A stretch of DNA of 64,000 nucleotides, taken from positions 62,001-126,000 of the forward strand of contig CANPWZ010000003.1 of the NCBI GenBank assembly GCA_947585425.1, given 5' to 3'. The stretch is from an uncultured Oscillospiraceae bacterium (lineage in GTDB: Bacteria > Bacillota > Clostridia > Oscillospirales > Oscillospiraceae). Position 1 is the stretch's first letter, and each line of letters opens with the position of its first letter. Position numbers and translations under genes: made by a program. The notes below the pieces were generated by a model, which worked only from the letters and a program-made list of their open reading frames with translations, was not told the origin of the DNA and searched no databases. Positions 5,282-62,253 of the stretch are shown piece by piece.

Positions 5282-6619
5282 TCACCCTCTCTTTCGCAGC
5301 TTTGCCACAAAGAAGCCGTCGGTGTGGTGGATGTGGGGCCAGAAGGTCATCATTCCGGGTTGCCTGCCGAACGCGGGCAGTGTGAACGGCTCCAACAAAA
5401 AATCGGAACAGCCCGCCAGAAAGCCGTCCACCACGCCCTGGTTCTCCCGCTCCAGCAGGGTGCAGGTGGAGTAGAGCAGCGTTCCGCCGGGTTTGACGTA
5501 TCGGGCGCAGTTGTCCAAAATGGCCTGCTGGAGGGCTGGCAGCCGCTCCATGGGCTTGGGGTCCTTGTAGCGGATGTCCGGCTTTTTGCGGATGACCCCC
5601 AGGCCGGAGCAGGGCACGTCGGTGATCACGGCGTCGAAAGCGCCCTCCCACTCCGGGCGGAACTCCGCAGCGCTCTGGAGGGCGGGCGTTATGATGGACA
5701 GGCCCAGCCGGTCCCGGCCCGCCTCCAGCAGCCCGATCTTGTGGGAATGGATGTCGCAGGAGATGATCTCTCCCCGGTCCTCCATGTCGATGGCGGCGGC
5801 AAAGGACTTGCCGCCTGGGGCGGCGCAGGCGTCCAGCACCCGCATCCCGGGTCGCAGGCCGGCGGCGGTCACCGCCAGACGGGCCGCCGGGTCCTGGATA
5901 TAGAACAGGCCCTCCCGGTAGGAGGACAGCCGCTCCAGATCGCCGGGATTCTTCAAGATCAGGCAGCCCGGCAGCCAGGGATGGGGCTCCGTCTCCACTC
6001 CGCCGGCGGAGAGGGCGGAGACGGCCTCCGCCGGCGTGGCCCGCGTCGTATTCACCTGAGCGGCGATCGGCGGTTGGTCGTTGTCTGCGGAGAGCAGCCG
6101 CTCCGCGCCGTCCTCGCCCAGGCGGGCGATGAACTCCTCCGTCAGCCACCGGGGATGGCTGTACCGCAGCGACAGGGTCTCCGCCCGGTCAGCGCCCGTG
6201 GGCTCAGGTAAATCGCCCGCCCGCAGCATGGCCCGGAGCACCCCGTTCACCATCCCCGCCGCCCGGGGGTTCCTGCAGTATTTCCGGGTCAGCTCCACCG
6301 CCTCGTTGACGGCGGCGCCGGCGGGGATCTTGTCCAGGAACAGGAGCTGATAGGCGGCGATCCGCAGGGCACACAGCACATTGAGCTCCAGCCGGTCCAG
6401 CCTGATCTTGCAGAAACGGGCCAGATGCCAGTCCAGCAGCATCCTGTTCTGGAGGACGCCGAAGCACAGCCGGGTGGCCAGAGCCGCCTCCCGCCGGTCC
6501 AGCCCGCCCTCCCGAAGGGCCTTTTTCAAAAAGCCGTCCGACCAGGCCCCCTGCCGCTCACAGGCGGCCAGGGTGAACAGCGCCGCCTCCCGGGCGGACA
6601 TGGGGCGTTTTTCGCTCAT
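5282..6619 (-). CDS. rsmB: 16S rRNA (cytosine-967-C5)-methyltransferase RsmB
   Basis: RsmB/Sun family enzyme, 445 residues. The N-terminal half resembles the NusB-like RNA-binding domain. The C-terminal Rossmann domain has the SAM motif DACAAPGGKS, the catalytic-Cys motif TDVPCSGLGV and the second Cys motif YSTCTLLERENQ, as expected for m5C methyltransferases with two cysteines. The ATG overlaps the fmt stop codon by four bases (ATGA), so translation is coupled. The order def-fmt-rsmB is widely conserved. Confidence 0.94.
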   Translation of the reverse strand: MSEKRPMSAREAALFTLAACERQGAWSDGFLKKALREGGLDRREAALATRLCFGVLQNRMLLDWHLARFCKIRLDRLELNVLCALRIAAYQLLFLDKIPAGAAVNEAVELTRKYCRNPRAAGMVNGVLRAMLRAGDLPEPTGADRAETLSLRYSHPRWLTEEFIARLGEDGAERLLSADNDQPPIAAQVNTTRATPAEAVSALSAGGVETEPHPWLPGCLILKNPGDLERLSSYREGLFYIQDPAARLAVTAAGLRPGMRVLDACAAPGGKSFAAAIDMEDRGEIISCDIHSHKIGLLEAGRDRLGLSIITPALQSAAEFRPEWEGAFDAVITDVPCSGLGVIRKKPDIRYKDPKPMERLPALQQAILDNCARYVKPGGTLLYSTCTLLERENQGVVDGFLAGCSDFLLEPFTLPAFGRQPGMMTFWPHIHHTDGFFVAKLRKRG

Positions 6620-7542
6620 AGCGGCCCCTTCACCGGGTGGCCCATGAGAAAGGCGGCGGCGGACATGGGCTTTTTGCCGTCGGGCTGCAATTCTAAAATC
6701 TCAAGGATATTACCGTCCCCGCAGACGATTTTCAAGCCTTTTTTGTCGGCCTGGGCCACTGAGCCGGCGGGTTTCCCGGATGACTCTCCCGTCAGTCTTG
6801 CGCGCAATACCTTGCAGCGAACGCCGTCCAGCGCCGTCACCGCCGCCGGCCAGGGGTACAGCCCCCGGACCTGATCGTGGACGCGTCGGGCGGTCTGCCC
6901 CCAGTCGATGGGGGACAGCTCTTTGGACAGCATAGGAGCGTAACAGGACTTTGCGTCGTCCTGGGGAACGGCCGAAACGGTCCCGGCGGCGATGTCCGCC
7001 ACCGTTTTCACCAGCAGCTCTGCGCCCAGCTCAGCCAGACGGGCAGTGAGCTCCTGGGCGTTCTCATCGATGCCGATGGCGGTCTCCCCTTGGGTCAGGA
7101 TGTCGCCGGTGTCCAGTCCCTCGGCCATATACATGATGGTGACGCCGGTTTTCTCCTCCCCATTCAGGATGGCCCAGTTGATGGGGGCCGCCCCACGGTA
7201 TCTCGGCAACAGGGACGAGTGGACGTTGACACAGCCGAATTTGGGCAGCGCCAAAATATCCGGCGGCAGGATCTTTCCATAGGCCGCCACGGCAATGAGC
7301 TCCGGGGACAGCTCTTTCAGGATGGACAGCGCCTCTCCGTCCCGCAGCTTTTCCGGCTGATACACGGGAATATCAACCGACAGGGCGTATTCCTTTACAG
7401 GGCATGGCTGGAGCTTGTTCTGGTGCCGTCCCACCGGCTTGTCCGGCTGGGTGAACACGCCGGCGACCTCATGGCCGGCCTCAACCAGCGCCCGCAGGGA
7501 GGGCACCGCGAATTCCGGGGTGCCCATGAACACGATCCTCAT
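6616..7542 (-). CDS. fmt: methionyl-tRNA formyltransferase
   Basis: Formylates initiator Met-tRNA using 10-formyl-tetrahydrofolate. The 308-residue protein starts MRIVFMGTPEFAVPSL. It carries the HSSLLPRYRGAAPINWAI substrate/cofactor motif with the catalytic Asn-His-Asp triad context (NVHSS and DTGDIL). The start at 7542 follows a GGAGG site and overlaps the def stop by four bases. The open frame extends 47 codons upstream through def, but that extension has no ribosome site and is not homologous. It is paired with deformylase, which removes the group it adds. Confidence 0.95.
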   Translation of the reverse strand: MRIVFMGTPEFAVPSLRALVEAGHEVAGVFTQPDKPVGRHQNKLQPCPVKEYALSVDIPVYQPEKLRDGEALSILKELSPELIAVAAYGKILPPDILALPKFGCVNVHSSLLPRYRGAAPINWAILNGEEKTGVTIMYMAEGLDTGDILTQGETAIGIDENAQELTARLAELGAELLVKTVADIAAGTVSAVPQDDAKSCYAPMLSKELSPIDWGQTARRVHDQVRGLYPWPAAVTALDGVRCKVLRARLTGESSGKPAGSVAQADKKGLKIVCGDGNILEILELQPDGKKPMSAAAFLMGHPVKGPL

Positions 7543-8075
7543 GCGTCGCCCTCCGGCTCTTCCTTTGCGCCTTTCTCCTGATGGGCGGCCCGGTAGGCGT
7601 CCATCTCCTCGGGGGTGTACAGCCGATCCGTGTGCTCCACGAACAAATGGCCGTCCAGATGCTCCAGCTCGTGGCAGAAGCACCGGGCCACGATCTCCTC
7701 CCCGGTGGCCTCGAACCAGTTGCCGTCCCGATCCTGGGCCCGGACGGTGACCTTATAAGGCCGGGTGACGATGCCGTACTGCCCGGGAACGCTGAGACAG
7801 CCCTCAAAGTCGGTCTGCTCCCCCTCCTGAGAGATGATCTCGGGGTTGACCAGCTCCAGGATGTGCTCGTTCCCCTCCTCCATCACGTCCATGACCACCA
7901 CCACCCGGCGGAGGATGCCCACCTGGGGGGCGGCAAGGCCCACGCCGTTGGAGATCAGCAGGGTCTCTTTCATGTCGTCGATGAGGGTGTGGAGCCGCTG
8001 GTCGAATTTCACCACCGGGCGGCACTTCTTCTCCAGGGCGGGGTCGCCCCGGGTGATGATGATACGTTCAGCCAT
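7539..8075 (-). CDS. def: peptide deformylase
   Basis: Metallo-hydrolase that removes the N-formyl group from nascent proteins; 178 residues. All three family motifs are visible: GVGLAAPQ (motif I), EGCLSVPG (motif II with the metal-binding Cys) and CHELEHLDG (HExxH motif III). The start at 8075 is preceded by GGAGGAA. The gene follows priA by 16 bases and is coupled to fmt by an ATGA overlap. Confidence 0.95.
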   Translation of the reverse strand: MAERIIITRGDPALEKKCRPVVKFDQRLHTLIDDMKETLLISNGVGLAAPQVGILRRVVVVMDVMEEGNEHILELVNPEIISQEGEQTDFEGCLSVPGQYGIVTRPYKVTVRAQDRDGNWFEATGEEIVARCFCHELEHLDGHLFVEHTDRLYTPEEMDAYRAAHQEKGAKEEPEGDA

Positions 8076-8091
8076 CTTTGGTTCCTCCTTG

Positions 8092-10560
8092 TCAGTCCAG
8101 CGGGTCCACGTCGGCAAAGACGGTCACTCCGCGGTTCAGCTTGTCCGCCTGGGCCTGCCGCAGCAGATGGGCCACCAGAAGGCGGATGTCTTTCGTGTTT
8201 TTGGTATTCAGGATCAGCCGGTAGCGGTAGCGGTTGTTCACCTTGGCCACCGCCGCGGGGGCGGGCCCCAGAAGCTGCCAGGTCTGGCAGGAATATGGCT
8301 CCTGACGCAGCGCCCCGCTGAGGGCGTCCCGAAGCCGGAGGCAGGTCCGCAGCACCGCCGTCTCCTCCACGCCGGAGGCGGACAGCACGAACAGGTCGCT
8401 GAAGGGCGGCAGGCACCGGGCCCTGCGGATACCGATCTCCTGCTCATAAAAGCTGTCATAGTCCTGTCTGGCGGCGCAGCGGATGACCTCGTTGTCCGGG
8501 GTGTAGGTCTGGATGACCGCCCGGCCCTCCTTGCCGCCCCGGCCCGCTCTCCCCACCACCTGGGTGAGGAGGGAAAAGGTGCGCTCCCCCGCGTGGATGT
8601 CCCCGCTGTACAGGGACTGGTCGGCGCTTACCGCCCCCACCAGGGTGACGTTCTCAAAGTCCAGCCCCTTGGCCACCATCTGTGTCCCCAGCAGGATGGG
8701 CACCCGGCGGCGGCGAAACTCCTCCAGAATGGCCTCATGGCTGTGGGTGGCGGACACCGAGTCGGCGTCCATGCGGAGGCTCTCAGAGCCGGGGAACAGG
8801 TCCCGCAGCTCCTCCTGGAGCTTCTGGGTGCCTGTCCCCACAAAGTTCAGGATGCCGCCGCAGGAGGGACACTCCTCCGGCAGAGGCTCCGAGTGGCCGC
8901 AGTAGTGGCACATGAGCCGCCGGTTGGCGGAGTGATAGGTCAGGCTCACCGAACAGCGGGGACAGGTGGGGGTCTCCCCGCACTCGCCGCAGGTGACCAT
9001 CCGATGGGCTCCCCGGCGGTTGAGGAACAGGATGGCCTGTTCACCTCGGTCCATGGTCTCTCCCAGCTCTTTTGCCAGCAGGCCGCTGACACTGTTCCCG
9101 TTGCCCTGGCGGAGCTCCTCCTTCATGTCCACGATTTCCACCCGGGGCAAGGCCCTCTCGTTGAACCGATGATCCAACTGGAACAAGTGGTAATCGCCCT
9201 TCTTCGCGTGGTACATGGTCTCCACGGAGGGGGTGGCGGAGCCCAGCACCAGCAGGGCGTTCTCCTTGAAGCAGCGGTATTTGGCCACCTCCCGGGCGTG
9301 ATAGCGGGGGGTCTGCTCCGATTTATAGGTGGGCTCCTGCTCCTCATCGATGACGATGACCCCCAGATCGGGCAGGGGCGCGAACACGGCGGAACGGGTG
9401 CCCACCACCACCCGGGCCTCTCCCCGTTTGGAACGCTTCCACTCGTCGTACCGCTCGCCTGCGGAGAGGGAGCTGTGGAGGATGGCAACCTCCCGGCCAA
9501 AATGGGAGGTGAAGATCCGCATGAGCTGGGGAGTCAGGGCGATCTCCGGCACCAGCACCAGGGCGGTCTTTCCCTGGTCCAGCAGGGTGTGGATCAATTG
9601 AAGATAGACCTGGGTCTTGCCGCTGCCGGTGACGCCGTAGAGCAGCGCCGCGGCGGGCCTGCCGCCCTCCGCCAGCGCCAGCAGGCCCCGGCATGCCGCC
9701 TCCTGCTGCTCATTGAGGACGATGGGGGCCGCCTGGGGCAGCTCGGGCAGATCGGGCCGGCGGTAGACCTCCCGCTTGGAGAGGGTCAGTATCCCCCGCT
9801 TTTCCAGCGCCCGGAGGGTAGTCATGGACGCGCCGGTGAAGTAGCACAGCTCTTTGGCGGACACCTCGCCGATGGCGCACAGGGCCTCGGCCGCGGCGTA
9901 TTGCAGGGGCGCCCTGCCCCGCTTCGGCGCCACCAGCGCCATGGCGTCGGCCGGCGGCATGGCCAGGGCGGCGATCAGCTCCGACTTGTCCCCCACGTTT
10001 CGGGCGGTCTGGGTCTCTTTGACAATGATCCCCTTCTCAGCCAGCGCCCTGATGGCGGGGGTGGGATCGGCGGTGCCAAAGGCCATCCGTATCCTGCCCA
10101 GCTCCGCCGCCCCGCCGTTGGCAAAGAGCAGCTCCACCAGCCGGTTGGCGTTGGAGGAGCGGCCCGCCGCCTCATAGGCGGCCTCCCGGTCCACGCCGGG
10201 GGCGATCCTCCAGCAGTCCATCAGGGAGAACCACAGCCCCGCCGGCAGCATGATCCGCAGCGCGTCGTACACGGTACAGAAATATCGCTCCCGCATCCAC
10301 AGGGCCAGCCGGAGGGAGCGCTCGTCCAGCACCGGCTGCTCGTCCAGCAGGGCCTGGATGGATTTCAGCTTTGCAGTGTCCTCCCGCTCCCCCAGGGAGA
10401 GGACCACCCCGTCCGTCCCCCGGTTGCCCGCGCCGAAGGGCACCGCCACCCGCATACCGGGCAGGACCAGGCCGTCCAGCTCCGAGGGGATGAGGTAGTC
10501 ATAGGGCCGGTCGATGGCGTAGGGAGCCGCCGACACCACGATCTTCGCGATATTGGCCAT
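8092..10560 (-). CDS. priA: primosomal replication-restart helicase PriA
   Basis: Superfamily 2 helicase that reloads the replisome at collapsed forks; about 822 residues. The N-terminal 3'-end-binding region contains the typical DYLIP and PFG segments. It has Walker A (GVTGSGKT), a DEEQE box, and a zinc-binding insert with four CxxC pairs (CGEC, CPRC, CHYC, CPSC). The helicase C-terminal lobe has GTQMVAKGLDF. The ATG at 10560 is preferred over a GTG nine bases upstream, which overlaps the GGGAGGTGGGG ribosome site. It lies between rpoZ and def; coaBC, often found between rpoZ and priA, is not present here. Confidence 0.95.
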   Translation of the reverse strand: MANIAKIVVSAAPYAIDRPYDYLIPSELDGLVLPGMRVAVPFGAGNRGTDGVVLSLGEREDTAKLKSIQALLDEQPVLDERSLRLALWMRERYFCTVYDALRIMLPAGLWFSLMDCWRIAPGVDREAAYEAAGRSSNANRLVELLFANGGAAELGRIRMAFGTADPTPAIRALAEKGIIVKETQTARNVGDKSELIAALAMPPADAMALVAPKRGRAPLQYAAAEALCAIGEVSAKELCYFTGASMTTLRALEKRGILTLSKREVYRRPDLPELPQAAPIVLNEQQEAACRGLLALAEGGRPAAALLYGVTGSGKTQVYLQLIHTLLDQGKTALVLVPEIALTPQLMRIFTSHFGREVAILHSSLSAGERYDEWKRSKRGEARVVVGTRSAVFAPLPDLGVIVIDEEQEPTYKSEQTPRYHAREVAKYRCFKENALLVLGSATPSVETMYHAKKGDYHLFQLDHRFNERALPRVEIVDMKEELRQGNGNSVSGLLAKELGETMDRGEQAILFLNRRGAHRMVTCGECGETPTCPRCSVSLTYHSANRRLMCHYCGHSEPLPEECPSCGGILNFVGTGTQKLQEELRDLFPGSESLRMDADSVSATHSHEAILEEFRRRRVPILLGTQMVAKGLDFENVTLVGAVSADQSLYSGDIHAGERTFSLLTQVVGRAGRGGKEGRAVIQTYTPDNEVIRCAARQDYDSFYEQEIGIRRARCLPPFSDLFVLSASGVEETAVLRTCLRLRDALSGALRQEPYSCQTWQLLGPAPAAVAKVNNRYRYRLILNTKNTKDIRLLVAHLLRQAQADKLNRGVTVFADVDPLD

Positions 10561-40789: not shown

Positions 40790-41380
40790 TCAGTAATCGA
40801 ACAGGCAGTGCCCGCAGGCGTTGATGACGGTGGTCCCTCCCAGCCGGGTGAGCTGGGGGACGTGGATCCCGTAATTTTTGTGGATGTGGCCGTGGATGAA
40901 GTATTTGGGATGATACCGCTCCACCAGCCCGCCGAAGCACTCGAACCCCCGGTGGGCCAGGGTGTCGAAGTCGTTGACGTGGCGGGCGGGGGCATGGGTG
41001 AGCAGGATGTCGATCCCCCCGCTCCTCCACAGGGCCGGCTTCAGCCGCCAGAGCCTGCGGCGCATCTGTTCCTCGGTGTACATATGCTTCCCGTCCCGGT
41101 AGCGGAAGGACCCTCCCAGCCCCAGGATGCGGACGCCATCGTGGACATAGAGCTGGCCGTCCACACAGACACAGCCCTCCGGCGGCGCCGTGTCGAACCG
41201 CTCATCGTGGTTGCCGTGGACGTACAGCAGCGGGCAGTGGCTCATGGTCACCAGAAACTCCAGATACTCCCGCCGCAGGTCCCCGCAGGACAGGATGAGA
41301 TCCACCCCGTCCAGCATACCCGGCGTGTAATAGTCGTAATACTGCTTGGATACCTCATCGGAGACGGCCAGGATCTTCAT
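40790..41380 (-). CDS. metallophosphoesterase with atypical first motif
   Basis: 196 residues. The motifs CGDLRREYL, HGNHDERF, THAPARH and GHIHKNYG are present. Motif I reads SDEVSKQYYD, lacking the usual Asp-x-His, a variant common to a clostridial subgroup in which the His is replaced. The protein is cytoplasmic with unknown substrate. It overlaps the BMP-domain gene by four bases (ATGA), so the two are coupled. Confidence 0.85.
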   Translation of the reverse strand: MKILAVSDEVSKQYYDYYTPGMLDGVDLILSCGDLRREYLEFLVTMSHCPLLYVHGNHDERFDTAPPEGCVCVDGQLYVHDGVRILGLGGSFRYRDGKHMYTEEQMRRRLWRLKPALWRSGGIDILLTHAPARHVNDFDTLAHRGFECFGGLVERYHPKYFIHGHIHKNYGIHVPQLTRLGGTTVINACGHCLFDY

Positions 41381-43302
41381 GCCTGTCCCTTCCTGTCTTT
41401 TGCGGCGGGCTTGACGCCCACCTGATCCACGGTGGCTTTGCCCACATCGGTGAGCTGGTCATAGCTGGGGATGGAGCCCTCCACGTTCTCCATCAGCCAG
41501 TCCATGGTGATGATCTGCTCCGTGGTGAGATCCCCGCTCATCTCTCTGCCGCCCTGGGCGTAGAGGGTGCCCCGGAAGGGCCGGCAGAGATCGGCGCGGA
41601 TGCTCCGCTTGAGCAGCTCCGCCAGCTTACGGGTGATGGGAGGCACCTTGTCCGAGCAGGCAAGATCCACCACGCCGGCGGACATGCCCCAGTAGTAGTT
41701 GACGGCCCGTTCGGTCTCCTCATACTCCGCCCGGAAGGATTTGTCCTTGATGCGGCGGAGCATCTCCTCATAGTAGACGCCCCAGTTCCACACAGGCACC
41801 GCCAGGTTCACCCGGCCGCCCTCGGTGACCAGGGACAGGCCGAAGCTGGCCCAGCTTTCCTCCCCCTTGCGGGTCAGATCCTGAGAGGACATCAGGCGGA
41901 TGCCCCGGTCGGTGAGGCGCTTCATGGCCGCCCCGGCCCCGTCCACCGAGGTCCACTCCAGATAGACCTTGGCGGTGGGGTTGACCATCTGGACCCCCAG
42001 GGCAAAGGCGTTCACCCCGGCGATCTGGCCGTAAATGGGGTAGTCACAGAGATAGCCCACGTCGTCCCGGCCGGCCAGGGCCCCGGCGATGGCCCCCACC
42101 ACGAATTTCGCCTCGTAGATCCGGGCGTAATAGGTACGGATATACCGATGGGACTGGTTCAGGGAGCAGTTGAGGATGGATACCTCCGGGTGCTCCACCG
42201 CCGCCCGCAGGGAGGCGGGCAGCAGCCGGGGAGATGTGGTAAAGAGGATGGTGTTCCCGTCTGCGATAGCCTTTTCGATGACCTCATAGGGGTCGCCCTC
42301 CAGGGCGTTGAAATAGGGCGTCGTGTCGATCCTGCCCTCGAACACCCGCTGGACATGGAGCCGCCCCTGTTCATGGCCCCGGGTCCAGGCGGCGGAGGCG
42401 GGGTCCTTGTCGTGGATGAAGGCCACCTTGCGGCCCCTGCCCTCCCCGGGGGTGAGCACCTTGGTGATGAGGCCGGGCTTCTTTTCCTCCGGGGCCAGCT
42501 TCACGTCGATGGGGGCCTCCTCCTGTTGGAGGGCGATCTCCTCCCACACCTTGGAGAGCATCTTCCTGATCTCCCCCTCGGTGGAACTGCGCAGGGTCTG
42601 CCAGCCGTATACCCGCAGGAAGGCCAGGAGGGCGTCCCCCAGAGTGGAGGACAGCTTCGCGCCGCCGCTGGCCTCATAGGCCCGGCGGAAGTAATAGCAG
42701 GCGGAGGTGAAAGAGGCCCGCTCCTCCTCGCTCCACATCACATCCGGGTCCCTGCCGAGCAGGGTCAGCAGCTCTGCGGCGCTCCCCTGCCTGGAGAACT
42801 CGATGGAGTTGGTGCCGCTGAGCTTGTAGAAGTCCAGCAGCTCATAATACCGCTCCACCTCGGGGGAGCCGTTGCGCTCAGGCAGCACCCGGATCACGTG
42901 GGCGTAGACCGTCTCCGCGCCAAAATACTTCAGCACGGAGACCCGCTTGTTCCCCTCCTCCACATAATAGCGGTTCATGTACTCATAGCACTTGATGGCG
43001 TCCCGGATGCCCTCCTCCAGGTGGGAGACGCACAGAGCGGTCCACTTGGCGGCAAACTCGCTGTTCACATCGATGATGGGCATGAAATTGCGGGCAAAGG
43101 CGCTGGTGCGTCCGCCGGTCAACGTGCCCGCCACAAAGCTCATCGGGATCTGCATGACGCCCACATCCACCCCGCGGTTGAGCCGCTCGGCAGGGACAAA
43201 GTCGGACAGGGCGGGCAGGCAGGGATACTCTCCTCTGGCGGTACAGGCGCGGAACTCCCTCTGGCCCAGCTTCAGCGCCTCTTTGTAGTCAGCGTTCGGC
43301 AT
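41377..43302 (-). CDS. cytoplasmic BMP-domain protein with ParB-like N-terminal region
   Basis: 641 residues with no signal peptide or lipobox. The N-terminal half contains VEEGNKRVSVLKYFG (about 114-128), like the nucleic-acid/nucleotide-binding core of ParB-type domains. The C-terminal half, from GRKVAFIHDKDP near 296, is a basic-membrane-protein (PnrA-type nucleoside-binding) fold with a conserved AGALAGRDDVGYLCDYPIYG. Such proteins normally bind nucleosides outside the cell; this one should bind a ligand inside, so it may be a regulator (compare Bacillus Med). A phosphoesterase gene is coupled downstream. Confidence 0.75.
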   Translation of the reverse strand: MPNADYKEALKLGQREFRACTARGEYPCLPALSDFVPAERLNRGVDVGVMQIPMSFVAGTLTGGRTSAFARNFMPIIDVNSEFAAKWTALCVSHLEEGIRDAIKCYEYMNRYYVEEGNKRVSVLKYFGAETVYAHVIRVLPERNGSPEVERYYELLDFYKLSGTNSIEFSRQGSAAELLTLLGRDPDVMWSEEERASFTSACYYFRRAYEASGGAKLSSTLGDALLAFLRVYGWQTLRSSTEGEIRKMLSKVWEEIALQQEEAPIDVKLAPEEKKPGLITKVLTPGEGRGRKVAFIHDKDPASAAWTRGHEQGRLHVQRVFEGRIDTTPYFNALEGDPYEVIEKAIADGNTILFTTSPRLLPASLRAAVEHPEVSILNCSLNQSHRYIRTYYARIYEAKFVVGAIAGALAGRDDVGYLCDYPIYGQIAGVNAFALGVQMVNPTAKVYLEWTSVDGAGAAMKRLTDRGIRLMSSQDLTRKGEESWASFGLSLVTEGGRVNLAVPVWNWGVYYEEMLRRIKDKSFRAEYEETERAVNYYWGMSAGVVDLACSDKVPPITRKLAELLKRSIRADLCRPFRGTLYAQGGREMSGDLTTEQIITMDWLMENVEGSIPSYDQLTDVGKATVDQVGVKPAAKDRKGQA

Positions 43303-43455: not shown

Positions 43456-44834
43456 TCACTGGTCCGCCACCAGATTGTTCACCCAGCGGCGGCTCCTCAC
43501 CAGCCAGAAGCCGATGGCCGCCTTGACCAGATTCAGTCCCTCCACCACGGCGTACATGGGCACCACCGGCAGGGCGGTGAACCGGGATAGCACAAAGGCC
43601 ACGGGGATGCTCAGCACCCAGAGGAAGCAGCAGTCGAAGATGAAGGTGATGACCGTCTTGCCCCCGGAGCGGAGCGTAAAGTACGCGGAGTTGACAAAGG
43701 CGTTCAGCGGCATCATGGCGGCGGCCACCAGCAGCAGCCGGACGGCCAGTGTCTTGACGGCGGCAGTGGTGTTGTAGATCTGGGGGATCAGCGGGGACAG
43801 CAGCGCCATCGCCGCCCCGACGGCCACGCTGAGCGCCACCGAGAAGGCGATGAGCTTCCGGTCCTCGTCCACGGCGCGCTCGGTCTCCCCCGCTCCCAGC
43901 AGCTTGCCCACGATGATGGCCACGGCGTCCCCCATGGCCAAAAAGGCGCAGAAGAACAGGTTGGACACGGTGGTGGAGATGTTGAAGGCGGACACCACCT
44001 CCAGCCCCCGCATGGAATAGCACTGGTTCAGCGTCGCCATGCCGCCGGCCCACAGCACCTCGTTGGCCAGCAGGGGCGCGCCCAGGATCAGCACCTGCCG
44101 CAACAGCTCCCCCGGCACCCGCAGGGAGCGCCAGGCCCCCGCGATGTAGGGCGGTGCAGATGGGTCCACAGCACCACGATGAGGCACTCCACGCACCGCG
44201 CCATGACGGTGGCCGCGGCCGCCCCCACCACGCCAAGGGCGGGAAAGCCGAATTTGCCGAAGATGAGGATGTAGTTGAAGCACACGTTGACCAGCACCGC
44301 CGCCACGCCGGCCGCCATGGGCACCACCGTCTCCCCTGTGCTGCGCAGGGTGCCGGCGTACATCTGGGTCACGGCGAAGGGGATCATCTGCCACAGCATC
44401 ACGTGCAGGTAGTCCATCCCGTGACCCAGCGTGGCGGCCAGGTCCAGATCCTCCTCTCCCTGGTGGAGGAACAGGGAGATCAGCTCCTCCCCGCAGGCGA
44501 GGAACAGGGCCAGGAACACCGCCACCGAGGCCATGGCGATGAACAGCTTGATCCGCAGGGTGTCCCGGATGCCCTTGTCGTCCCCCTTGCCGTAGAACTG
44601 GGCGGTGAAGATGCCCGGGCCGGCCAGCCCTCCGAAGATACACAGGTTGAAGATGAACAGCAGCTGGTTGACGATGGCCACGCCCGACATGGGCTCGGTC
44701 CCCACCTGGCCCACCATCACGTTGTCCAGCAGGCTGACGAAGTTGGTGATCACATTTTGCAGCAGGATCGGAGCCATGACGGCCAGCAGACGCCGGTAAA
44801 AAGCCCGGTCGCCGATGAATTTACACAGGACCAT
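43456..44834 (-). pseudogene. MATE family multidrug efflux gene, frameshifted
   Basis: The N-terminal half (from ATG 44834) reads a normal MATE protein through VVLWTHLHRP and then runs into nonsense, stopping at 44088. The C-terminal half continues in another frame from PYIAGAWRSLRVPGELL to the stop at 43456. Adding one C to the CCC run at 44149-44151 (plus strand GGG) restores a continuous 459-residue, 12-helix protein. All else looks intact, including a promoter and ribosome site. The break may be a real recent mutation, phase variation or a sequence error. Family members export cationic drugs with Na+ or H+ antiport. Confidence 0.85.
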
Positions 44835-46651: not shown

Positions 46652-46680
46652 ATTATACCCCTTGTAAAAATAAAAAGCAA
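46652..46680 (-). promoter_or_regulatory. promoter of the phosphorylase gene
   Basis: TTGCTT (46675-46680), 17-base spacer, perfect TATAAT (46652-46657) on the minus strand. The -35 lies within the arm of the neighbouring terminator hairpin. Confidence 0.62.
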
Positions 46681-46712
46681 GACATAAACCCAAGTTTATG
46701 TCTTGCTTTTTA
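46671..46712 (-). terminator. 19-bp AT-rich palindromic terminator after the MscS operon
   Basis: Perfect 19-bp arms (46671-46689 and 46694-46712) with loop CCAA, followed on the minus strand by a second T-rich run. It is the only AT-rich terminator in the window and is followed on its upstream side by about 80 AT-rich bases (46713-46790) that hold no gene. Confidence 0.8.
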
Positions 46713-46804: not shown

Positions 46805-47131
46805 TCAGCCGGACCGATCCCGCCGCTCCTCCGGGGTCAGGGTGCCCTCCCGGGTGTGGTTCTCATAGTGGACGAACTCCCTGGGCTTCTCCTTCTCCTC
46901 GCTCACCTTCTTGCGTACAAAGGTGTAGGCCCCGGCGCCGATCAGCACCGCGGTCCCGCCGCCGGCGGCCGCCCCGGCGAGCAAGCCGCCGCCCTCCGTC
47001 TCCGATCCGGCGGAGACGGGCGGCTCCCCCTGCTCCGGGACCGGGGAGGGCGCCGCGGCAAGGGCGGGACAGATCAGCAGCAGAGCCATACCACACGCGG
47101 CGAACAGGATCTCAGGTCTTATCCTCGTCAT
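46805..47131 (-). CDS. small membrane protein coupled to the MscS-like channel
   Basis: 108 residues. A hydrophobic signal-like segment (about 7-27, ending LAAAP) is followed by a short Pro/Glu/Gly-rich outer part. A second helix follows (about 50-70, GGLLAGAAAGGGTAVLIGAGAYTF). A charged cytoplasmic tail (VRKKVSEEKEKPREF) ends it. No family is recognised. The ATG at 47131 has GAGGAAGAGGAAG upstream and lies inside the channel gene, a 20-base overlap that argues for a shared complex or stoichiometric expression. Confidence 0.65.
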   Translation of the reverse strand: MTRIRPEILFAACGMALLLICPALAAAPSPVPEQGEPPVSAGSETEGGGLLAGAAAGGGTAVLIGAGAYTFVRKKVSEEKEKPREFVHYENHTREGTLTPEERRDRSG

Positions 47132-50100
47132 CTTCCTCTTCCTCATCCTCGGAGAGCTTTTCCAGCGTACGGTCCACTTCATTGGGCTTCGCCTCTTCCT
47201 GCCTGGGCTTTTCGTCCTCTTTGAGATAGCTGACGGTGATCTGGGGGAAGGGCACGTTGATGTCGTGCTTGTTGAAGATCAGGTAGACCGCCCGGTACAG
47301 ATCGCGGCAGAGCTGGATGCGGTCGCCCTCCTTACACAGGGCGGTGATCTTCAGATCCACGCTGTTCTGGCCCAGGGCGGACACGCCCTTGTAGAAGGGG
47401 CCGTCCAGGATGGCGGGCAGGCGGTTCTTCACCTCGGGCAGCTCGGCGGCCAGCACCGCCTCCACCCGCTCCAGGGACTCGCCGTACTCGATGCTCACGT
47501 CCACGGCGGCGTAGGAGGCCTCCTTGGTCATGTTGATGATGCCGGACAGGTTGGAGTTGTTGAACACCTTGATGTTCTTGGTCGGGTCCTCGATCTTGGT
47601 GGTGCGCAGGCCGATCTCCAGCACATTGCCCCGAAAATCGCCCACGGTGACGATGTCGCCCACCCGGAACTCGCCCTCGAACACGATGAACAGACCGGCC
47701 AGGATGTCCTGGATCATGCTCTGGGCGCCAAGGCCGACGATCAGGGACAGGATGCCGGCGGATGCAATGAGGCTGCCGGTGTCCAGGCCGAACAGGTACA
47801 GGGCGTAAAAGATGGAGACCAGGGCCGAGCCGTAGCGCACCACGGAGGACAGCAGGTGCCCCAGCGTCTCCGCCCGGCTGCCGATGTTGGCGGTGGCGGA
47901 CTCGATGATGAACTCCACCAGCCTGGCCCCCACCAGCATCAGCAGGAGGGTGATGATACAGCGGGTCAGGGCGAAGATGTTGAGCCCCCTGGACCACACG
48001 CCGTCATACACATAGTTGACCGCCTCGATCTTGACCAGCCCCAGCAGGGAGGCCACGATGCACAGGAACACGAAGATGGCGAAGGCGCTCAGCACCCCCT
48101 TGGCCACGGCGCCGAACTTCTGGTCCGGCGTCATGTCCCGCCAGGCCACCTCCTCCGCGTCCCAGCGGGCGGCGGCGGAGCGCACCCGGCGGGTCTTGCC
48201 GGAGGGCATGGTCAGCAGGAAGGGCTCCTGCTCGTTGCGGACGCGGCTGTGGTCCACGCCCTCGTTGTCCCGGTACATCTGCTCCTCCCCCGCGCCGAAC
48301 AGGCACATATAGAGGGACACTACCAGCAGGGCGACGACGGTCACCTCCACCACCACCGGCAGGAAGGAATCGCCGGTGGAGAACACCGTGGAGGTGGGCA
48401 CGGCGGCGCCGATGAAGTGCTCCCCCTTCAGCTTGGAGGTGAGCAGATATTCGGTGCCGTTGACGGTGACGATGCCGTTGAACATCTCGCCCAGCTCATT
48501 GAACGCCTCGGCGGAGTAGCCGATGCTCAGGGCGGAGCGGCCGATGTCGTTGGGGTCCGGGGAATAAATGCAGATGTGCTCGGGGCTGGTGTCGCAGATC
48601 AGGATGCTGCCCGTGCCGTGGACGGTGGTGTGGCTGGCCACATAGGTCAGGGTGGCGGTCTCCATCACGGAGCGCAGCCGTTCCGGCACGATGCTGATCT
48701 GGAGCAGGCCCCGGTGCTTCAGGATGGGTCCGCCGGCCCAGCGGCCAGCCAATTGAGCCGCGTAATCCTCTTTGGTCACATAGCGGGTGGAGCCGTCCTC
48801 ATCCTGGATGGTGTAGTAGTGAAAAGCGGTGCCGATGTACTGGGAGAAGCCTCCCTCGCCGTCCCCGGCGTAGTCCTGGGCGGTGGTGTCCCGGTGCTCG
48901 GCCAGGATCTCCCAGAAGGGATAGGACTGGTCCTCGGGATCGCCGGTGATGGTGAAGTACCAGTCCTCCTGGTTGGTGGCCATGATCCGCCCGTACTCGT
49001 CAAAGACGGCGATGCGCTCGATGGCGTTGTTTTCACACAGGTTGATCAGGAACTCCTGCTCACTCACCGACCAGCACGGGTTGCCGTACACGTCCAGCCC
49101 CGAGACGATCTCGCCTGCCTCGTTCCGCTCCACCGGCTGGGGGTGGACGTTGTCCGCCTCCGTGTCAAACTCCATAATGTACTGGGGATTCTCCTCCAGC
49201 ATCCGGGCGATCTGCACGCACTTGTCCAAAAACAGCGCCTTGTACTCGGTATTCAGGGTCTCGGCGTCCTCGGTGTTGCGCTCCAGCTTGTTGCCGATCT
49301 CGTCGGTGGCCCAGTTGGCCTCGTAGGCGATGGCGGACAGGGAGTTCAGGGTCTGGATGTAGAATCCGATCAGCACCACCGCCAAAATGCCCATGACCAT
49401 GATGGGCAGCACCTTTTGGGCCACTGTCAGATTGAAATTCAGCAGATTCTTCCGCCTGCCGTCGCTGTCCTTCCCCTTCAGCAGGGTGATGAACCGGGGC
49501 ATCGTGCCCATGCGCACGTTATCGATGTTGATGATGACCCCGTAGGCGGTGACCAGGCCCACACAGATGATCAGCACAACGGCGATCAGGAAGATGAGCA
49601 GGGAATCGTTGGACAGGTTGGTGTCGGCCTTCGTCATGACGAACACCATGGCGTTGTTCCACTGCTTGCCCACGGCGCACCAGGTCTCGCCGCCGAAGGT
49701 GAGCTCGCCCTCATAGGTCTCCCGGAGGCACTCGATGGGCACGCCGTTCTGCAGGGCGTATTTGCCGGTGAGGTCGTCGATGGGGTTGTAGAGGAAGGTG
49801 TAGTCGTTCAGGGAGATGGCGATGGACACCGTGTCCACGCTGACCATCCCCCGCAGCACCGCCTCCCAGGAGGTCATCCGCTCGATGTTGGCCTTGACCT
49901 CCGTCCAGTCCTCCACGAAGACCAGCACCCGGTCCGTGCCCACCTGCAGACCAAAAAACCGCTTGACCCCGTCCTCATACTCGATGCTGAAGGGCTGAGC
50001 GGTGGCGCCCGGGACGGATGCACAGGCCCGGAGCATATTGAACCGCTTTAATGTGAAGTCATAGGGGCACTGCCAGGAGGCGTACACCTTCCCGTCACCG

Positions 50101-50507
50101 TCGATGATGGCGGCGGACTCCACGTCGGCGTACGCACAGATGTCCCTGAACATGGCGTCATCCACATCATTGGCACTCACGCGGCTGTAGTGATAGTCGG
50201 TGTTGATCAGCTTGGCGATGTAGATCTTGTCGTACTCCTCGTTGAGGGTGTCCTGCTCCACCACGCCGTCGCCCAGGCCGGCCAGCACCGTGTCGATCCG
50301 AACCCAGTTGGTGTCGTACAGGTGCCGCTCGGTGCTGCGCAGCCGCACTCCGGCGATCACCAGTATGGCCAGGGTCACCGCCGCCAGAGCGATGGCCATC
50401 ACCAGGATGAATCGGAACCGAACATGCCACTTCTGCTTCTTGTCGTCCAGGAGGGACCAGAACAGGCTTTTCTTCTTCGTATTCGTCTCCACCGTCAGTT
50501 CCTCCAT
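47112..50507 (-). CDS. large sensor-fused MscS-type mechanosensitive channel
   Basis: 1131 residues, several times the size of E. coli MscS. Helices are predicted at about 33-55, 303-326, 366-388, 714-738, 802-825, 844-868, 888-907 and 909-935. Two extracytoplasmic domains of about 245 and 325 residues (57-301 and 389-713) look like paired Cache/PAS-type sensors; each is framed by helices as in chemoreceptors. The MscS pore helix is ASAGILSLIVGLGAQSMIQD (about 915-934), followed by the MscS beta domain (VGDIVTVGDFRGNVLEI) and an acidic tail. The gene overlaps a solute-binding lipoprotein gene by 13 bases and has no good ribosome site of its own, implying coupling. The sensor identity is inferred from topology. 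Confidence 0.85.
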   Translation of the reverse strand: MEELTVETNTKKKSLFWSLLDDKKQKWHVRFRFILVMAIALAAVTLAILVIAGVRLRSTERHLYDTNWVRIDTVLAGLGDGVVEQDTLNEEYDKIYIAKLINTDYHYSRVSANDVDDAMFRDICAYADVESAAIIDGDGKVYASWQCPYDFTLKRFNMLRACASVPGATAQPFSIEYEDGVKRFFGLQVGTDRVLVFVEDWTEVKANIERMTSWEAVLRGMVSVDTVSIAISLNDYTFLYNPIDDLTGKYALQNGVPIECLRETYEGELTFGGETWCAVGKQWNNAMVFVMTKADTNLSNDSLLIFLIAVVLIICVGLVTAYGVIINIDNVRMGTMPRFITLLKGKDSDGRRKNLLNFNLTVAQKVLPIMVMGILAVVLIGFYIQTLNSLSAIAYEANWATDEIGNKLERNTEDAETLNTEYKALFLDKCVQIARMLEENPQYIMEFDTEADNVHPQPVERNEAGEIVSGLDVYGNPCWSVSEQEFLINLCENNAIERIAVFDEYGRIMATNQEDWYFTITGDPEDQSYPFWEILAEHRDTTAQDYAGDGEGGFSQYIGTAFHYYTIQDEDGSTRYVTKEDYAAQLAGRWAGGPILKHRGLLQISIVPERLRSVMETATLTYVASHTTVHGTGSILICDTSPEHICIYSPDPNDIGRSALSIGYSAEAFNELGEMFNGIVTVNGTEYLLTSKLKGEHFIGAAVPTSTVFSTGDSFLPVVVEVTVVALLVVSLYMCLFGAGEEQMYRDNEGVDHSRVRNEQEPFLLTMPSGKTRRVRSAAARWDAEEVAWRDMTPDQKFGAVAKGVLSAFAIFVFLCIVASLLGLVKIEAVNYVYDGVWSRGLNIFALTRCIITLLLMLVGARLVEFIIESATANIGSRAETLGHLLSSVVRYGSALVSIFYALYLFGLDTGSLIASAGILSLIVGLGAQSMIQDILAGLFIVFEGEFRVGDIVTVGDFRGNVLEIGLRTTKIEDPTKNIKVFNNSNLSGIINMTKEASYAAVDVSIEYGESLERVEAVLAAELPEVKNRLPAILDGPFYKGVSALGQNSVDLKITALCKEGDRIQLCRDLYRAVYLIFNKHDINVPFPQITVSYLKEDEKPRQEEAKPNEVDRTLEKLSEDEEEEDDEDKT

Positions 50508-51292
50508 TTCTGGATCAGCTCATCCATCGTCCCGTCGGACAGGATGGTCTGGACTGTCTTCTCCACTTTGGCGGAGAGCTGGGAGCCCTTGGGGGTACAC
50601 ACCCCGTACTCCTGGGGAGAGAACTCGTCGGGCAGATAGACACGGCTGTCGTCCATATACACGTTGAGGATGGAGCGGTCCGCCGCGAAGGCATCCACCT
50701 CGCCGTACTCCAGCGCCCGGGAGATGTCGGCGTAGGTCTCGAACTCCACGAAGGTGACGCCGCCGTCGAAGCCAGCGGGGGTAAAGCTGTCCTCGTCAAA
50801 GGCGGGGATAGCCCCCTGCTCCGCCATGTACTGCGCCAGCGTCAGGGCGTTGGTGGAGCCGGACATCACGCCGACGCGGCAGTCCTTCAGCTCGCTCAAA
50901 GAGCCGATCAGAGAGGACTCCTCCACCATGACCCCCACATAGTCGGTGTAGTAGGTGGTGGAGAAATCGTATTTCTCCAGCCGCTCCTCCGTCTTGGAGA
51001 AGGTGGCGATGACCATGTCCACCTCTCCCCGGTCCAGCATCTCCTCGCGGGTGGCGGCGGTGACCGCTACGAATTCCACACCGCCATAGCCAAGTTTCCT
51101 GGCGATGCGGCGGGCCAGGTCGATCTCCATGCCGGAGTACTCCTGGGATTCGGCGCTGTACAGGCTGAAATTGGTGGTGTCATCCTTGACCCCCACCTTG
51201 AGGGTGCCGCCCGTGATCCCCCCGCAGGAGGTCAGCAGACAAAGGGCCAGGGCCGCCAGCAAAATGGCCGCCCACCGTCTTCTCTCTCTCAT
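50495..51292 (-). CDS. amino-acid-type solute-binding lipoprotein (SBP_bac_3)
   Basis: 265 residues with lipobox LTSC (Cys23). The bilobed fold shows LKVGVKDDTTNFSLYS, GMEIDLARRIARKLG, VDMVIATFSKTEER and YFDFSTTYYTDYVGVMV-like segments typical of polar amino acid binding proteins. No permease or ATPase of an ABC importer is next to it. Instead it is translationally joined to the MscS-type channel, so it may deliver a ligand signal to the channel's sensor domains. The start has only a weak ribosome site. Confidence 0.88.
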   Translation of the reverse strand: MRERRRWAAILLAALALCLLTSCGGITGGTLKVGVKDDTTNFSLYSAESQEYSGMEIDLARRIARKLGYGGVEFVAVTAATREEMLDRGEVDMVIATFSKTEERLEKYDFSTTYYTDYVGVMVEESSLIGSLSELKDCRVGVMSGSTNALTLAQYMAEQGAIPAFDEDSFTPAGFDGGVTFVEFETYADISRALEYGEVDAFAADRSILNVYMDDSRVYLPDEFSPQEYGVCTPKGSQLSAKVEKTVQTILSDGTMDELIQKWRN

Positions 51293-51346
51293 GCTATCAC
51301 GCTCGCTTTACGCGGAATACCGGCCCCGCCGGCGACGATACTAACT

Positions 51347-51380
51347 GACATAGTATACCATGTCCCCATCGGTTTTGCAA
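51347..51380 (-). promoter_or_regulatory. promoter of the binding protein-MscS operon with overlapping palindrome
   Basis: TTGCAA (51375-51380), 17-base spacer, TATACT (51352-51357) on the minus strand. An 18-base near-perfect palindrome (51347-51364, GACATRGTA half-sites, one mismatch) is centred on the -10 element and could bind a repressor. Confidence 0.7.
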
Positions 51381-60873: not shown

Positions 60874-62253
60874 TCACTGCCTCTCGCTGATAAATGCCTC
60901 GATGAGCTCGATCTGCTTTTTCACGCTCTCCTCCGAGGGCCCGCCGTATACTTTACGCCCATTCACGCAGGTTTTCAACTGCAAAGCGTCGTATACGTCC
61001 TCGTCGAACAGCTCGGAGATGGCCCGGAAGTCCCGGAGCGTTAAGGTGTCCAGGCTCTCCCCCGTCTTGATGCACATGTTCACCAGCCGGCCCACGATCA
61101 TGTAGGCCTCCCGGAAGGGCATCCCCTTCTTGGCCAGGTAGTCGGCGCAGTCGGTGGCGTTGATGAAGCCGCCGGCGGCGGCCTTGGCCATGTTCCTGGG
61201 CTGGACGGTCAGGGTTTTGAGCATGGCGGCGAACACGGGCACGCACATCTCCACGGTGTCGAAGGCGTCGAACACCGGCTCCTTGTCCTCCTGCATGTCC
61301 TTGTTGTAGGCCAGGGGCAGGCCCTTCATCACTGTCAGGAGGGTGACGAGGGAGCCGTACACCCGGCCCGTCTTGCCCCGGACCAGCTCGGCCACGTCGG
61401 GGTTCTTCTTCTGGGGCATGATGGAGGAGCCGGTGGAGTAGGCGTCGTCCAGCTCCACATACTTGAACTCCCAGGAGCACCAGAGGATGATCTCCTCGGA
61501 GAACCGGGACAGGTGCATCATCAGGATAGACAGGGCGGACAGCAGCTCGATGGCGTAGTCCCGGTCGGACACGGCGTCCATGGAGTTGTCCACCGGCTTG
61601 GCAAAGCCCAGGGCCACCGCCGTGGCGAATCGGTCCACCGGGTAGGTGGAGGTGGCCAGGGCGCCCGCCCCCAGGGGGCACTCGTCCATCCGCTCCAGGC
61701 AGTCCTCCAGCCGGGTCACGTCCCGCCGGAGCATGTTGGCGTAGGCCATCATGTAGTGGCCGAAGGTGGTGGGCTGGGCCCGCTGCATGTGGGTATACCC
61801 CGGCATGACGGTGTTTACGTTGGCCTTCGCCTTGTCCACCAGCACCCGCTGCAGGTCCAGGATCTGCCCGATGACCACCGGGATCTCCTCCTTCACGTAC
61901 AGCCGGAAGTCGGTGGCCACCTGGTCGTTCCGGGACCGGGCGGTGTGGAGCCGCTTGCCCGTGTCCCCCACCCGCTCGGTAAGCATGGCCTCGATGTTCA
62001 TGTGGATGTCCTCGTTGTCCAGGGAGAACTCCACCTTATCGTCCTCGATGTCGGCCAAAATGGCCTTCAGCCCCTCGATGATCTTCCCGGCTTCCTCAGG
62101 GTCGATGATGCCCTGTTTGCCCAGCATGGCGGCGTGGGCGATGGAGCCCCGGATGTCCTGCTCGTACAGCCGGGCGTCGAAGCCGATGGAGGAGTTGAAG
62201 TCGTTGACCAGGGTGTCGGTCTCCTTCTGGAAACGGCCGGCCCACAGTTTCAT
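60874..62253 (-). CDS. argH: argininosuccinate lyase
   Basis: 459 residues of the fumarase/aspartase superfamily. MKLWAGRF opens the protein, and GSSIMPQKKNPD is the signature with the catalytic Ser. It releases arginine and fumarate. It is the first arg gene of the argH-C-J-B-D-F series; argG, which makes its substrate, is not found in the window. AAGGAG precedes the ATG. Confidence 0.95.
   Translation of the reverse strand: MKLWAGRFQKETDTLVNDFNSSIGFDARLYEQDIRGSIAHAAMLGKQGIIDPEEAGKIIEGLKAILADIEDDKVEFSLDNEDIHMNIEAMLTERVGDTGKRLHTARSRNDQVATDFRLYVKEEIPVVIGQILDLQRVLVDKAKANVNTVMPGYTHMQRAQPTTFGHYMMAYANMLRRDVTRLEDCLERMDECPLGAGALATSTYPVDRFATAVALGFAKPVDNSMDAVSDRDYAIELLSALSILMMHLSRFSEEIILWCSWEFKYVELDDAYSTGSSIMPQKKNPDVAELVRGKTGRVYGSLVTLLTVMKGLPLAYNKDMQEDKEPVFDAFDTVEMCVPVFAAMLKTLTVQPRNMAKAAAGGFINATDCADYLAKKGMPFREAYMIVGRLVNMCIKTGESLDTLTLRDFRAISELFDEDVYDALQLKTCVNGRKVYGGPSEESVKKQIELIEAFISERQ

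Follow-up and report, generated by a model that had tools for sequence, protein, structure and literature searches.

The 64,000-nucleotide stretch analysed here (the window; positions 62,001 to 126,000 of contig CANPWZ010000003.1, assembly GCA_947585425.1) belongs to an uncultured Oscillospiraceae bacterium and carries on its minus strand a unit of three head-to-tail open reading frames (ORFs), encoding a solute-binding lipoprotein (solute-binding protein, SBP), a large MscS-type channel protein with outer sensor domains, and a small protein (Table 1). The SBP and channel frames overlap by 13 bases and the channel and small-protein frames by 20; these overlaps, the three ORFs and the lipobox with Cys23 are all where the original prediction had placed them. 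The strong promoter that it had claimed is present as a promoter-like site, and "strong" can be read only as a consensus match because the region holds six such sites against a shuffle mean of 1.4. Terminator-like sites number four, no more than in shuffles (mean 3.1). The predicted lack of an ATP-binding cassette (ABC) permease or ATPase beside the SBP was borne out within the three-ORF unit.

Table 1. Features of the SBP-channel unit, in window coordinates.
Feature	Position	Strand	Remarks
Promoter-like site	51352..51380	-	TTGCAA-17-TATACT, TG before -10; 9/12 consensus positions; consensus match only
Solute-binding lipoprotein, SBP_bac_3	50495..51292	-	265 aa; lipobox LTSC, Cys23; first ORF of the unit
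Channel protein	47112..50507	-	1131 aa; two dCache-like sensors, then an extra helix, MscS pore and beta domain
Outer sensor 1, dCache fold	49605..50342	-	about residues 56-301; structural matches span 56-296
Outer sensor 2, dCache fold	48375..49355	-	about residues 385-711; structural matches span 384-710
MscS pore helices, beta domain, C-terminal domain	47208..48020	-	channel residues about 830-1100
Small protein	46805..47131	-	108 aa; third ORF of the unit
Terminator-like stem	46671..46712	-	19 pairs plus T tail; closes the unit

The SBP matches SBP_bac_3 at 100.3 bits (cut-off 26.4) and has both the family-3 fold and an amino-acid pocket. This pocket, predicted to accept aspartate or glutamate (Asp/Glu), consists of R82, T97, S99, R104, Y187, D205 and Y229, and five of the pocket residues are kept in all 25 channel-linked SBPs. 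The original prediction had spoken of an amino-acid-like ligand; the pocket residues and comparison with known SBPs support this and narrow the predicted ligand to Asp/Glu. In sequence, fold and pocket the protein resembles the PEB1a-type amino-acid SBPs of ABC transporters, which serve a permease and an ATPase, whereas the unit has neither.

The pore of the channel protein is of the MscS type. Its beta domain and pore helix place it in the MscS superfamily, MS_channel_2nd (PF00924) is matched at 54.1 bits (cut-off 20.2) and in 11 of 11 members, and the best solved channel match is MscS 3udc (7.4e-33), which we take to be TtMscS. The pore and beta domain had been called complete, and this stands for PF00924 but not for MS_channel_1st (PF21088; 17.4, cut-off 23.1) or MS_channel_3rd (PF21082; 17.2, cut-off 21), both of which fall short. 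The eight membrane helices that had been proposed are plausible: a hydropathy scan found seven membrane regions (near residues 42, 312, 375, 727, 813, 859 and 915-923), while the second MscS transmembrane helix, expected at about 885-905, stayed below its threshold.

Both outer regions of the modelled channel match solved tandem Cache domains, with a double Cache (dCache) fold behind a long membrane-proximal helix, as had been predicted of a sensor. Structural matching was done with VIA-align, as a second look at the Foldseek ranking, and the dCache domains of the chemoreceptors PctA, Mlp24 and TlpC are among the matches. The two sensors are duplicates of each other. Of the 11 members, 4 match Pfam dCache_1 at all (45.0 bits in L066, against a cut-off of 45; 42.5 in L064; 22.6 in L062). 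A SpoIIE-type phosphatase (L068:6436-8301, genome G285) is partly similar to sensor 2.

Comparison with the two nearest relatives (loci L057 and L058) gave ratios of nonsynonymous to synonymous substitution (dN/dS) of 0.19-0.25 for SBP and channel. Against L059-L061 the ratios were 0.52-0.75, where dS looks low. The pore is the most constrained region (dN 0.003 vs L057, 0.019 vs L058), as expected of a working channel, and sensor 1 the least (dN 0.117 and 0.126). This conservation argues against the idea that the assembly signals and does not conduct, with SBP and dCache domains acting by way of the MscS body or the small protein on some output in the cytoplasm. The small protein would be an extra part for such a role, as would the roughly 200 additional residues that follow the MscS part in two relatives (G324 and G172), and still we regard it as highly improbable. 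The channels of these two relatives (L062:5987-9919 and L063:5489-9421, minus strand) are sisters of the window's and carry the same two sensors; their C-terminal extension gave no convincing Pfam match and by eye looks slightly like an anti-sigma/HATPase N-box.

The strongest argument that SBP and channel belong together comes from their conservation. The SBP gene lies directly upstream of the channel in 8 of 10 relatives with upstream DNA, at 40-91% identity, and in 16 of 16 further loci of genus g118 (one of these has only a fragment of the channel, at the end of a contig), which makes 24 of 26 loci in four genera (g1, g100, g44, g118). Left out of these counts were G184, whose channel is cut at a contig end, the SpoIIE protein of G285, and L082 and L083, which are the L064 and L065 loci. 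Of 9 loci examined, 7 repeat the 13-base overlap, while in most g118 loci a short gap separates the two genes. Such conserved placement of an SBP gene next to one for an outer-sensor receptor is the arrangement of an SBP-activated receptor. Thirteen window genes were tested for shared flanks (E up to 1e-8): some are common to L058 and L059, L057 shares the unit only, and L060-L066 share only the channel and, where present, the SBP. A chance neighbourhood of unrelated genes was rejected, the pair being kept where the flanks are not, and the pair is inherited in common. The original prediction had expected a conserved order of all three genes, which held for the SBP and the channel but only among closer relatives for the third.

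Within the genomes sampled the unit seems restricted to a single family, because 394 genomes of the order (E up to 1e-10) and 391 of the class (E up to 1e-15) gave partial sensor matches and no further full-length member. One of the partial matches, L143, is chemoreceptor-like by eye. A scan of genome contigs returned a single match, to the MscS part only.

An ABC permease elsewhere in the genome might be the true partner of the SBP, a possibility that the original prediction had itself raised. The window's genome (G000, 98% complete) has SBP_bac_3 at three places, namely the unit's SBP and two long permease-fused ORFs. Its only over-cut-off permeases of the matching family (TIGR01726) are those SBP-fused ones, none being left unclaimed. 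Nor was any TIGR01726 permease over cut-off found in three further genomes that carry the pair, G030 (98% complete), G423 (95%) and G024 (78%). A HEQRo-type permease and ATPase beside or serving the SBP is thus absent from the unit and, over cut-off, from these genomes, apart from the SBP-fused permeases of G000. In G008 the one TIGR01726 permease is part of an 891-residue ORF with a match to the SBP profile as well. A distant permease as true partner was rejected on this absence, with the exception of G347, G353 and G385.

The history of the SBP was approached with a tree of 46 SBPs, whose bootstrap had yet to settle and in which a number of long branches were flagged, L120 included; L126 was left out as too short. 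The 25 channel-linked SBPs fall on one side of a branch (94/93), next to an SBP of G003. This neighbour belongs to an ATPase-SBP-permease-permease operon (L142, G003:C6:25000-40000, at 5806-9054), in a genome that is of the same genus but lacks the channel pair. Among NCBIfam models, the SBP of this operon scores best against one for an Asp/Glu-binding protein, at 216.5 bits where the cut-off is 373. Because the linked SBPs group together beside an Asp/Glu-type ABC operon SBP, the simplest reading of the sequences is that a channel gene once captured the SBP of an Asp/Glu transporter.

Taken together, we read the operon as a two-component receptor-channel in which the Asp/Glu-loaded SBP acts through the dCache domains on MscS opening, and we give this a probability of roughly 0.58. 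MscS channels are tension valves. The lipoprotein would bind the acidic amino acid outside the membrane, and the closed, loaded SBP would dock on one of the two dCache domains in the manner of LuxP on LuxQ. The sensors might then relay the change through the membrane helices and raise or lower the tension at which the pore opens, so that the channel would respond to the external amino acid by releasing or retaining small solutes, perhaps glutamate or other anions. Loaded SBPs are described as stimulating signalling receptors by binding their outer domains, besides feeding transporters (PMC9602780), and TtMscS is described as an anion-selective channel (PMC5661003). Because the 3udc-type channel is anion-selective and MscS channels export glutamate elsewhere, one may even speculate by analogy that an acidic amino acid is both signal and cargo. 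The more specific reading, an SBP-gated mechanosensitive channel with an Asp/Glu-binding protein in trans, tandem dCache domains and an MscS pore, forming a separate-parts counterpart of an ionotropic glutamate receptor, is put forward tentatively, at somewhat less than even odds. As for the original prediction, its observations were confirmed and its interpretation upheld in part: the dCache sensors, the conservation of the pair and the narrowed ligand speak for it, the order of the third gene and a weak case for the small protein's role do not.

The dCache domains could instead bind a small ligand of their own, with the SBP only buffering or competing for amino acid near the channel and never docking. 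Chemoreceptor dCache domains such as those of PctA, Mlp24 and TlpC do bind ligands themselves, and G324 and G172 have the sensors without an adjacent SBP. The persistence of the SBP gene beside the channel makes this distinctly unlikely, however, and the RxWY amino-acid motif, which we take to mark dCache_1AA domains, is not seen by eye in either sensor. Passive uptake, in which the SBP hands over its amino acid at the mouth of the channel and the amino acid then enters along its gradient, has in its favour that the same SBP family feeds ABC permeases and that three genomes lack such a permease over cut-off. An MscS pore cannot concentrate a solute, though, and two sensors would be superfluous for delivery, so that this is the least probable of the readings considered.

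Several observations weigh against the receptor-channel reading. To begin with, the docking of SBP on channel, the ligand's effect on gating, the direction of control and the cargo of the pore are all steps that we infer. The distribution is patchy as well: the sensor part occurs in 4 of 42 genomes of the same genus (the window's included) and some sensor match in 11 of 400 of the family, 18 of 35 genomes of g118 and 1 of 34 of g44. In the two g28 genomes mentioned above, G324 and G172, no SBP adjoins the sensor-bearing channel, and other SBPs lie elsewhere in the genome. Several free TIGR01726 permeases exist in G347, G353 and G385, and the window's genome has 19 matches to PF00528, the broader family of ABC permeases, counting the two fused ones. 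The missing adjacent SBPs and the free permeases would suit a plain osmotic valve whose outer domains are large, accompanied by a leftover or scavenging SBP from a lost or distant Asp/Glu ABC transporter, to whose SBPs the protein is after all nearest. Such a leftover would hardly explain the adjacency across four genera with flanks not kept outside the genus, the five invariant pocket residues, or the missing family permease of G030, G423 and G024, and we hold this explanation to be unlikely.

Further counterpoints concern the sensors and the ligand. Pfam dCache models gave no sequence match for the window's own sensors, and a sensor-profile search for solved relatives returned none that was credible (best E 0.84), so the dCache call rests on fold and relatives. 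The best NCBIfam model for the SBP is of the Asp/Glu type, and since its score of 149.3 is below the cut-off of 373, it does not carry the name. In genus g118 (L064-L066, L081, L084-L098) the Asp-type T97 is replaced by Cys (19 of the 25 linked SBPs), and in 18 of the genus's 19 linked SBPs the lipobox pattern is missing and the start resembles a type I signal peptide; ligand and anchoring may differ there. These lipobox-less SBPs look secreted; if the cell has a single membrane, a partner would be required to retain them, in keeping with docking.

Among the closer relatives the small protein is an accessory. It has no Pfam match and carries an ENHTR-type motif; by eye it begins like a signal peptide and has a single membrane segment rich in glycine. 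Its start codon is uncertain and not conserved, L058 having no ATG, GTG or TTG near the aligned start. Its presence in 5 of 10 loci, among closer relatives only, and a dN/dS of 0.34-0.77 led us to reject it as a core part, g118 lying mostly outside this comparison. The case for a regulatory subunit, as first proposed, is weak.

Parts of the arrangement recur in known systems. LuxP-LuxQ likewise has its binding-protein gene upstream of a receptor with a double Cache/PAS outer domain, but its output is a histidine kinase, its sensor domain single and its ligand another. MscK, MscM and bCNG resemble the channel in joining an MscS pore to extra domains, and solved MscK and MscM structures match about residues 842-1096; to our knowledge, those extra domains are of other kinds than dCache, and the genes of these channels have no binding-protein gene alongside. 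Ionotropic glutamate receptors, such as the prokaryotic GluR0, have the binding domain fused to the pore protein, whereas in the unit the binding protein is a separate ORF, dCache domains stand in between and the pore is MscS.

By analogy, the GlnH-GlnX-PknG system of mycobacteria, which shares the predicted ligand, comes close as a functional model. There too the gene for an Asp/Glu-binding lipoprotein accompanies that of a membrane protein with two outer sensor regions, and the role proposed for the lipoprotein is signalling rather than supply to a transporter (PMC6069109). The GlnH pocket residues lie at the same offsets as those of the unit's SBP, a correspondence read from the offsets and from PEB1a and 5eyf alignments, not from an alignment with GlnH itself. 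GlnX differs in its predicted four-helix-bundle sensors and in a kinase output in place of a channel (PMC6069109). MscCG and other glutamate-exporting MscS channels release an acidic amino acid through an MscS-type pore, and the excerpted accounts, unlike the unit, mention no outer sensor or SBP (PMC6110860, PMC12541555). In the open-licence literature we found no relevant description of an MscS channel paired with Cache or dCache domains, and nothing on a mechanosensitive channel that is ligand-gated with a solute-binding protein.

Two neighbouring genes, both on the minus strand, deserve mention. The gene at 41377-43302 of the window encodes a protein of 641 aa whose PnrA-like (Bmp) binding domain starts at residue 293; its first half is unannotated, and by eye it has no signal peptide. 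A relative (79%; L059:3077-4996) adjoins the unit in G008. At 43456-44834 a transporter that looks MATE-like by eye is split over two reading frames and is one long frame in L059; either a frameshift or an error in sequencing could explain the split.

The unit is relevant to the function of the large outer domains found in MscS relatives. If the proposed reading is true, a mechanosensitive channel would be the output of SBP signalling and would have a chemical input with a named candidate ligand.
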